From the NCBI GenBank assembly GCA_009746045.1, contig RPFO01000281.1:40250-104249 (forward strand): DNA of 64,000 nucleotides, in the 5' to 3' direction. The translations under genes were made by a program, and so were the position numbers. The DNA is from Mesostigma viride. Its lineage: Eukaryota; Streptophyta; Mesostigmatophyceae; Mesostigmatales; Mesostigmataceae. Positions 2,982 through 38,183 of the stretch are shown here, piece by piece (position 1 is the first letter of the stretch; the number at the start of each line of letters is the position of its first letter). Under the pieces are notes generated by a model. The model saw nothing but the letters and a program-made list of their open reading frames with translations. It did no database searches and was not told the origin of the DNA.

Positions 2982-5900
2982 CTATCTGGGACGGCTGCCA
3001 GGGATACCCGGCGAGCTCCTCGCGCTGCTCCCGCTCTTGCTCGCCGAGGGCGGGCGCACCATCCCGCCGCCCGACGGTGGCGCCATGCTGCTGGAGGGCG
3101 GGCGCAGGCCCCCCCCTGGCCGCCCCGCGCTGCTTGGCGGCCGCTGCGCCGGGACCGACCCGAACGCCCCTCCCGACCCCCGGCTCATGGGCCGCGCGAT
3201 CGGGGACCCTGCAGGGGGTGGCGAGTCCTCGCGGAACCCACCCCCGCTACTGTCGGAGTAGCCGCCCGAGGAGCTCATCCCCCCGCGGCCGCCACGCGAG
3301 GGCATCGGCGGCGGCGGCACGTAGCGGGGCTGCTCGTTGTCCTTGATGGTGGGTGGTGGCCCCGAGACGCCGCAGAGCGGGCACTCGTCCTTCTCGAGCT
3401 GCGCCATCTCAAACTCCTCCGTCTCGAAGAAATGGTTGCAGTGCGGGCACAGCGTGATGCTGGCGTCCGGGTCCATCACGCGGAAGTAGGCGTTGGGCAC
3501 CGCGGGGCACGGCCAGCGGCGGACAAACACCTCGGAGCGGTGCATGGCGGTCAACATCTCGCGGTCCACCTTGATGGGCTGGTTGGGGAGCAGCATCTGG
3601 CGCGTGAAGGGGTCGTCCATGTCAGGAAGGTCGTCGCCCGCGTTGTCGTCGTTCCCGAGGGAGAGGACTTGGCGGTCGCCGCCCCAGTCGTTGCGGTCCG
3701 AGGACGAGCGGCTGTCGCGCGACCTCTTCGAGGCCGTCACCCTGTGAGTGGTGTATATACGTGTGTGGTTGGTTTGGGGACAGGAACGGAGTTGGAGATG
3801 AGAAATTTATAGTTAATTAGGTAACATGATTCTAATTCTTTGAGGCAATCACCCTGTGGGCGGTCATGATATGACGGACACGATGAATTTGAGAACAGGA
3901 CGTGAAGAACAGGAAGGTCATTGAAAAAAGGAGATCTTTGGATCAGGAATGGGTTGGCTCCTTACTTGGGAAGGAATGGGGGAAGTCGATCAGAGGGGAG
4001 CTACAGGGGGTAAAGCTACAGCGGGACGAACCCTGGCTGAAAGCCAGTGGGGACGCCAGTGGGGGAAGAACAGATGCAAAAGCTCGCTTGCTGGCCTGTC
4101 CCCCCTCGGAGAGCAATGGCGCTTGCGTATCCCTGATAGCTGCTTGAAACCAAGGGAAACCACCTGGGCGTGATCAATTATAAAATATCATCACCTACAG
4201 ACCCACCGCGCCTCCATCCTGATCAGCCGGATGGCCTCTACAAGATCACATCTAACAGCATGTACACTTGGGCAGAGATGACAAAGGAAAGTAAAGCCCA
4301 CCTAGGCTATATCTCAATCCGCTTGATGGCCTCTACGAGATAGCCGGAAAATATTACTACCTATCATGCAGCAACAATTGACAAAAACTACCCACCATGG
4401 CTCCATTTCGATCAGCCTGATGGTCTCTACGAAAGATGACCAGCGAATAGCATCACCACTCATGCAGCTACAATGTAGAGAATCCACCCACCGCGGCTCC
4501 ATCTCGATCAGCTTGACGGCCTCGGCGTCGCTGATGTCATCCTCCAGCTCGAACTCGACGAGTGGCAGCACATCGAACGTGATGAAGGAGCGCTGGAACG
4601 GCTGCCCGCACGTCAGGCACGCGTCGCCGTGCGACGAGAGCAGCGGGTTGGCGGTGCTGCAGCGGTAGCAGACCGGGACCAGCTCCTCGGCGTCCGTGAA
4701 GGGGCGCGCGCGGATGCGCAGGCACGCCACGTCGATCTGGTCCATCCACGCAAAGGGGACCTTGAGGCCCTGCGGGGACAGGACCAAAGTGACGGGGGAC
4801 AGAAGTCAGTGGAACGGCATGTCGGGATGTGTTGCACAAGAGGGATCCTATGAGTGTCTGGGTTGTCCACACGCAAAGGGGGCGTCGAGGCCCGCACAGA
4901 GCCAAGAAGGAAAGAAGCACGAAAGGAAAAAGCAGTAGGTTTGGAAACTGTTGTGCGAGATCGCGTTAGGACTATCGTGTCTGCCCATGCAACGGGGAAT
5001 AGAGAGGCCCTGCGGGAAGAACGCACAGGCAAGCGGCAGGTAAGCAGCCAGATGGGAACCGACAGGGAAGCAGCATGTGAAGGTGTGTGAATGACGATCA
5101 CAAAGTATCGCACAAGGGTTGAAATCGCAGATGAGAGGACCTGGCTTTAAAAGCCTTGAGCGTGACAGATGCAAGTAAGGCCATCCAAGGAGGCCACCAC
5201 CATTCAGCGTGACAGATGCAAGGGGGATCATCCAGGGAGGGACAATCCAAAGGAGGAGGACAGGTGAAAAGAGCGATAGGCTCAGAACCAGAGCCGGGCA
5301 GGCAGGGGATAGAGAGGAAAAAGGTAGTGGGGGGGAGGGGGAAGAAGGGAAAAAATACTGGGGGAAAAAGATACAGGAGGGGGGAAGGAGATATGGAAGG
5401 AAAGAAAAAGCTACTACTGCGGTATGATTTAGCACGGTAACCGCACCTGCGGCTTGCCGTGCGAATACCGCGCCAGCTCGAGCGCACGCAGGCAAACGAC
5501 ACTACCGCACTGGTACCAGCGAGCGCCCATTCCTATCCATGCCTCGACAAAAACCGTCGCACCGCCAAGTGACACTGAAACTATGACACTATTACATTAC
5601 ACTGTAACTATGAGACTGTAACGGTACCCGCCGCTAGGTTGTCGTATGAGTTGCGCGCCTAGGCCCGAGAAAGTGAATCGACATCGGTCTCAATAGTAGC
5701 AACCCTACTGGCAGACACCTCCACAACCCACGACGCAGCACTAGTGCCCGAAATCTCAAAACGTACAGTGCTAGCAACACGCACAACAGCAGCACAGTGC
5801 TAACTAGCCACATGCACTCAAAATACCTGCAGCTTCTCGTAGGCGTTGCGTGCCAGCTTGAGTGCGCCCAGGCTCTGCCCCTGCTTGGCGACGGTGAACA

Positions 5901-38183: not shown

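Follow-up and report, generated by a model that had tools for sequence, protein, structure and literature searches.

Introns of the green alga Mesostigma viride carry copies of the exon ends that flank them. A copy brings the splice site with it and often tens of intron nucleotides. The pattern was observed in two genes of one 64,000-nucleotide stretch (contig RPFO01000281.1, positions 40,250 to 104,249, referred to in full as the window), and exon-end copying extends beyond it to unselected genes elsewhere in the assembly. The copies resemble neutral remnants left behind by short tandem duplications, and a comparison with points inside the same introns favours an excess specific to the donor junction.

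Host genes and gene models

The first host gene, IFT122 (2982..20159, minus strand), was modelled with 19 exons and 18 introns. The model translates into 1322 amino acids with one terminal stop. Residues 1-1193 align with the PDB IFT122 chain 8bda (1714.8 bits; the runners-up reach 1388), and gaps in this alignment are of one to three residues only (within query residues 1-998). We take 8bda to be the chain from the green alga Chlamydomonas, and the next-ranked chains to be human. The second gene (21041..38183, plus strand), called UBR-TPR here, codes for a UBR box (4.5e-14) together with TPR repeats (5.7e-17); 15 of its introns were analysed. Together the two genes give a window set of 33 introns and 66 junctions. 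Several of the donors and acceptors read AG/GT. The UBR-TPR intron after 32126 was omitted from the set because its acceptor could not be placed. This intron (32127 to about 33045) is presumably U12-type, judging by the U12 consensus; its donor reads ATATCCTTCC, and TCCTTGAC occurs twice close to the acceptor.

Exon ends are copied into the adjacent introns

As probes we used the 30 exon nucleotides adjoining each junction, and a Smith-Waterman score of at least 28 was counted as a match. Since the probes were limited to exon nucleotides, intron-internal repeats could not contribute. Matches within the own intron were found at 16 of the 66 window junctions (10 donor, 6 acceptor), so the copies of adjacent exon ends that an earlier note on this DNA had described are real. 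At the same threshold there were no matches for exon-interior probes (0/491), for probes against other introns (0/2112) or for reverse-complement probes (0/66), and these controls rule out chance similarity. TRF arrays also lie at exon edges within the window. Past the stop codons of both genes, and ahead of the UBR-TPR start codon, no exon-end copying was found (scores 17, 15 and 13).

The extent of the pattern had been overstated. Copies at a score of at least 28 occur in 13 of 33 introns, not in most of them, and periods in the window range from 61 to about 410 bp rather than from 65 to 220 bp. Fourteen of the 17 stretches listed in the earlier note lie at junctions scoring at least 28. The other three (27426-27830, 35837-35972 and 36264-36583) score 25, 23 and 24, all of them within tandem families; 35837-35972 was counted as intron-internal in the family tally because only about 8 exon nucleotides are involved. 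Copies absent from that list were found at 33234-33297 and 11907-11952 (donor) and at 3837-3864 (acceptor). The window was selected for showing the pattern, so its rates are inflated, and the kinesin and dynein introns described below are the fair sample.

In IFT122 all copies are given on the minus strand. Intron 18 holds three donor-junction copies (4201..4411; periods 96, 190 and 285) and a weak acceptor-junction copy under the probe threshold (3837..3864). Intron 17 has two acceptor-junction copies (4865..5016) and intron 15 has one (7214..7286; period about 105). Both ends of intron 14 are copied, the acceptor junction at 8183..8223 and the donor junction at 8519..8564, where 35 of 39 exon positions are identical. 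Donor-junction copies follow in intron 13 (9576..9607; period 66) and intron 12 (10247..10454; periods 62 and 167-235). Intron 10 contains two acceptor-junction copies complete with a polypyrimidine tract (11407..11746; periods 141 and 408), together with a donor-junction copy (11907..11952; period 332). Single donor-junction copies lie in intron 9 (12742..12800; period 93, 95% identical) and intron 5 (16837..16936; exon 27/33, intron 55/82).

On the plus strand, UBR-TPR intron 4 has two donor-junction copies (23061..23242; periods 99 and 243), and intron 7 has both a donor-side array (27468..27835) and an acceptor-side array (27906..28086; period about 80). Intron 12 combines a donor-junction copy (33234..33297; exon 23/23, intron 38/43) with an acceptor-side array (33989..34184; period 95-96). 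The donor-side array of intron 13 (34398..34777) comprises about seven units of 50-61 bp, two late copies of which show exon identities of 23/23 and 29/30. An acceptor-side array with 12 exon nucleotides and a period of 77-78 lies in intron 15 (36239..36583).

Exon-end copies in unselected genes

A kinesin-domain search of the whole 439.9-Mb assembly gave 125 exon matches, and 18 regions were taken. From 14 of these came 26 introns that lie between exons with adjacent domain matches and have GT-AG ends. A dynein AAA search (43 matches) added 14 introns from 7 regions, for a total of 40 unselected introns, with splice sites outside the window set by consensus, frame and domain continuity only.

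Copies were present at 11 of 80 unselected junctions (kinesin 9/52, dynein 2/28), as against 1 of 899 exon-interior probes. For kinesin the individual controls were 1/495 for exon interior, 5/1300 for other introns and 0/52 for the reverse complement; the dynein values were 0/404, 2/364 and 0/28. In 13 kinesin regions, self-matches (E<0.01) that overlap the kinesin exon match reach within 6 nt of its end. Across the sampled introns the repeats are direct, in the same orientation and 30-450 bp apart, with no match among the 118 reverse-complement probes of the window and kinesin sets. Clean adjacent tandem units stand at the donors of sampled loci L013 and L016. In units that abut, hit length should be close to the period or exceed it; among families in the unselected genes, it reaches 0.85 of the period in 3 of 10 that involve a junction and in 7 of 16 internal ones.

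At a further locus, L010 (about 3600-3780, locus reverse strand), a kinesin exon end is followed by about six 22-bp units. Read by eye, each unit repeats the exon end with a GC-type donor, CAG/GCAAGT.

Tandem arrays are error-prone to assemble, which counts for an assembly artefact as the source of the copies. Many copies are nonetheless 10-30% diverged, and identical arrays recur in C2 and C622, two contigs that overlap, though both come from one assembly; we find an artefact hardly credible. These two contigs, which contain loci L017 and L018, are near-identical over about 4 kb and represent a duplicated or haplotig contig. Only single-base indels separate them in 1.5 kb aligned. Their arrays do not differ in length and therefore give no dating of the duplications.

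Exon edges compared with exon and intron interiors

A comparison of exon edges with exon interiors, which the earlier note had proposed, was run on the window and kinesin introns: 25 of 118 edges matched, against 1 of 986 interior probes. Edge-only copying is expected of any tandem duplication, however, because exon-internal duplications alter the protein. Plain tandem duplication therefore predicts the same outcome, and this check cannot separate it from a junction-specific process.

The more demanding comparison is with the intron itself. Duplication could be uniform along the intron, with exon ends recognisable merely because the exon is frozen and with any donor excess due to sampling noise. 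We think this account rather improbable, though some of the counts speak for it. The probe-level edge rate in unselected genes is near the intron-interior rate (11/80 vs 225/1782). In the window and kinesin introns, 405 of 2692 intron-interior probes match elsewhere in their own intron, compared with the 25 of 118 edges, and at a score of at least 40 the edges (8/118) are no richer than the intron interior (231/2692).

We simulated uniform duplication with drift, indels and frozen exons. The simulated edge/interior ratio was 0.65-0.81 at score 28, and 0.30 with exon parts limited to 50 nt. Observed ratios at score 28 were 1.36 for kinesin and 1.40 for the window, and at score 40 they were 0.71 and 0.84. 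Unselected genes show a weak excess at the probe level, with 11/80 where 6.6-8.2 would be expected (p=0.06-0.19). Families that cross a junction in these genes number 10 of 26, against 5.4 expected (p=0.02); set against the fraction of 0.21-0.28 in the unlimited neutral simulation, the same count gives p=0.03-0.17, a fit that counts for uniform duplication.

Donor junctions are crossed more often than points within the same introns

In a pseudo-junction control, a crossing was scored wherever one copy of a duplicate spanned the junction and the other lay in the intron; intron-interior points were scored by the same rule. Low-complexity points were left out. Unselected donors were crossed in 7 of 40 cases against 1.40 expected, a 5.0-fold excess (p=1.1e-4); the control was designed after the weaker probe and family tests, several test forms were tried, and none of the p-values given here or above is corrected for that. 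With the exon part limited to at most 50 nt, the expectation falls to 0.99 (7/40, 7.1-fold, p=1e-5). Without low-complexity masking it is 1.49 (7/40, p=1.9e-4). Taken separately, the kinesin introns reach p=0.002 and the dynein introns p=0.02, with both dynein events in one gene. The 7 donor events, among 40 unselected introns, fall in 5 of 21 gene regions. Counted by gene region, the 5/21 compare with 1.37 expected (p=0.006), or with 0.97 for exon parts of at most 50 nt (p=0.001).

An acceptor excess outside the window was not found (2/40 unselected introns vs 1.74 expected). In the window, where the selected region inflates the counts and introns shorter than 300 nt were left out, donors were crossed at 12/30 vs 2.04 and acceptors at 8/29 vs 2.67.

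Frozen exons make copies easier to recognise. Under the same crossing rule, simulated donors were crossed in 27 of 295 cases against 7.3% at interior points, an inflation of 1.26-fold, and we reject the view that this ascertainment effect explains all of the donor excess. We also rejected a G-rich intron start as the explanation (G content at +7..66 0.335 vs 0.306, p=0.43), and base composition did not separate donors with copies from donors without.

Repeat coverage around unselected donors has a distinct shape. It is 0.002 at exon positions -60..-30, 0.095 at -30..-15 and 0.193 at -15..0; on the intron side it is 0.197 at +0..25, falling to 0.12-0.15 further in. Of the simulations, the unlimited one gave 0.119 at -15..0 and 0.091 at -60..-30, and the one limited to 50 exon nt gave 0.035 and 0.005. 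The unlimited simulation lacks the drop at -30 and the limited one lacks the junction peak, so neither reproduces both. Together with the same-intron and gene-region counts, this speaks against sampling noise, and plain uniform duplication fits the unselected introns poorly.

Copies appear to decay as neutral sequence

GT is retained in 21 of 29 donor copies, and the mean donor score falls from 5.14 to 3.14. No frame bias of the period was found among these copies (a multiple of three in 9/29). The idea that the extra splice sites are kept for use is not borne out, there being neither a frame bias nor any sign of special GT retention; on the same counts we rejected purifying selection on GT or frame.

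Selection might still keep the inner copies as back-up or decoy donors (for example, holding U1). The copies are centred on the junction, and the two late copies of UBR-TPR intron 13 are almost perfect. Intron-side similarity at +0..5, 5..10, 10..20, 20..30 and 30..40 is 0.86, 0.66, 0.55, 0.42 and 0.36, close to the 0.76, 0.67, 0.56, 0.46 and 0.40 of the neutral simulation; only the first bin stands above its simulated value (0.74-0.76), a small hint against neutral decay, and beyond it the profile resembles neutrality. With GT retention estimated at about that of neutral drift, no frame bias and falling donor scores, functional retention seems to us quite unlikely.

The exon and intron parts of the copies differ in divergence. 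Six of the 17 donor alignments have 30 or more intron columns aligned; in these, a hand tally gives differences at 19 of 145 exon positions (13%) and at 93 of 350 intron positions (27%). The ratio of 2.03 is expected if just the original exon is frozen while both intron copies drift.

Copies with at least 90% exon identity deserve separate mention. The intron part is present in 6 of 11 of them, and three simulations gave 56/72, 25/31 and 29/40. Such a low rate is not what simple tandem duplication would predict and is a small hint against neutral decay, though the numbers are small. Gene conversion or re-copying from the frozen exon could refresh junction copies, prolong their families and so yield the excess. 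Such concerted evolution would account for the 5 of 11 high-identity copies without an intron part, and for the near-identical late copies that stand among decayed ones in UBR-TPR intron 13. Yet 16 of 72 simulated copies also lack the intron part although conversion is absent there, and the numbers are small. We regard concerted evolution as an unlikely explanation in its own right; it overlaps the one we prefer, in which it might be what produces the hotspot.

Copies point to growth of existing introns, not to intron birth

The earlier note had taken the introns for the outcome of repeated tandem duplication across splice sites. The copies do look as if they arose in this way, by events that were local, and it is exon edges that are copied, not exon interiors. 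It had also invoked intron gain by duplication of AGGT-containing exon segments. In this scheme, the Rogers model as set out in PMC4974935 and PMC3443670, the duplicated exon segment itself turns into the intron. It predicts that the last part of the intron repeats the end of the upstream exon, or that its first part repeats the beginning of the downstream exon. These opposite-end copies were found in 0 of 72 and 1 of 72 introns (score at least 20), with controls at 17/5184 each. Several AG/GT donor and acceptor junctions are what intron birth would lead one to expect; with the required copies absent, we consider it very unlikely here. The best donor copy lies a median of 93 nt from the donor (17 junctions), in introns with a median length of 685 nt. 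Copies that sit this far inside indicate growth of existing introns in place of the birth of new ones.

Known systems share parts of this pattern. In known intron-gain cases (ATP2A1/2 of Hellsten et al. 2011, potato RdRp and fission yeast; PMC4974935, PMC3443670), short tandem duplication likewise occurs at splice junctions or AGGT sites, and the fission yeast cases have several tandem units of an exon segment, as here. The Drosophila cases (PMC2891723) also involve splice junctions or AGGT sites in short tandem duplications. All differ from the present case, in which no new intron arises and the copy lies within an existing one, at the median distance given above. Competing 5' splice sites (Reed and Maniatis 1986, as relayed in PMC9225289) offer two similar donors between which proximity decides; here the copies are natural, decaying and spread over many genes, and use of the outer site is what we infer. 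Intronic minisatellite arrays have head-to-tail units of similar period and are present in the same introns, but the units described here straddle the donor junction more than position predicts. Introner elements are repetitive sequences that shape introns across a genome, a trait they have in common with the copies. At the level of exon edges there is a difference, in that our edge probes rarely match other introns (7/6844). Among the titles and abstract openings of the papers listed from one open-licence library, we found no description of pervasive exon-edge copies in introns.

A proposed model of intron growth from the donor end

The explanation we prefer is that introns grow by local tandem duplication with a hotspot at the donor junction, the outer site being used and the copies decaying; we put its chances at about even, slightly lower than before the events were counted by gene region. 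Short local duplications, mostly of 60-130 bp, would keep enlarging introns. Duplication in tandem is the presumed act, and clean adjacent repeats are a minority of the junction families. When a duplication spans a junction, it would place 12-50 exon nucleotides and a splice site inside the intron. Splicing would stay on the outermost site through exon definition. With that site still spliced, the mRNA would be unchanged and the inner copy would decay. In human data (PMC9225289), exon definition favours the upstream donor, with the switch placed at flanking introns longer than 200-250 nt. Outer-site use fits exon definition, since the upstream donor is favoured there and the introns here have a median of 685 nt.

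The exon part measures 12-50 nt in all 27 of 27 junction families, the lower limit of the rule being 10 nt. Longer exon parts might let the inner site compete and so be removed by selection, which would set the length limit. A donor copy at locus L020 that does not belong to the intron set carries about 60 exon nt, beyond the 12-50 seen elsewhere.

The process may fall on the donor, or be retained there, about five times more than at points in the same intron. Candidate causes would be a mutational hotspot linked to transcription or splicing, or renewed copying of the frozen exon. In its full form, the proposal is that short tandem duplications in this lineage concentrate at the 5' splice junction, at about five times the intron background, that introns lengthen from the donor end by copied units of exon end and donor which the spliceosome ignores, and that a transcription- or splicing-tied process or re-copying from the selection-frozen exon is responsible. 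We advance this fuller version tentatively, at somewhat under an even chance.

Repeat landscape and consequences for annotation

Local tandem families number 0.63-0.84 per kb in introns. In other DNA there were 7 families in 49.5 kb of loci L002-L006 (about 0.14 per kb), 4 in 9.9 kb of L007 (0.40 per kb) and 11 in the 25.2-kb window tail (0.44 per kb); the contrast with introns is just suggestive, because these other regions hold transposon-like ORFs. Two long arrays lie inside introns, a 9-bp unit repeated 208 times (25182-27057) and a 7-bp unit repeated 177 times (30640-31869). Outside both genes, 52526-53782 and 54902-55830 contain arrays with 50, 152 and 75 bp units. A LINE-like element with reverse-transcriptase-like ORFs occupies 48000-51592, and similar-looking shorter ORFs occur at about 40-46 kb and in L003 and L006, all judged by eye, the element from its translations.

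The copies make a natural set of duplicated splice junctions available. If junctions throughout the genome were copied at the sampled frequency, about one in seven (11/80), there would by extrapolation be thousands of them. How the spliceosome selects the outer of two near-identical sites in vivo would then be testable, as would a role of splice junctions as mutational hotspots behind the growth of introns. The copies are also an annotation hazard, as gene finders will meet false exon ends. An unguided gene model of the window called at least five copies short exons (4207-4237, 4396-4416, 8188-8220, 8526-8559 and 16898-16945).
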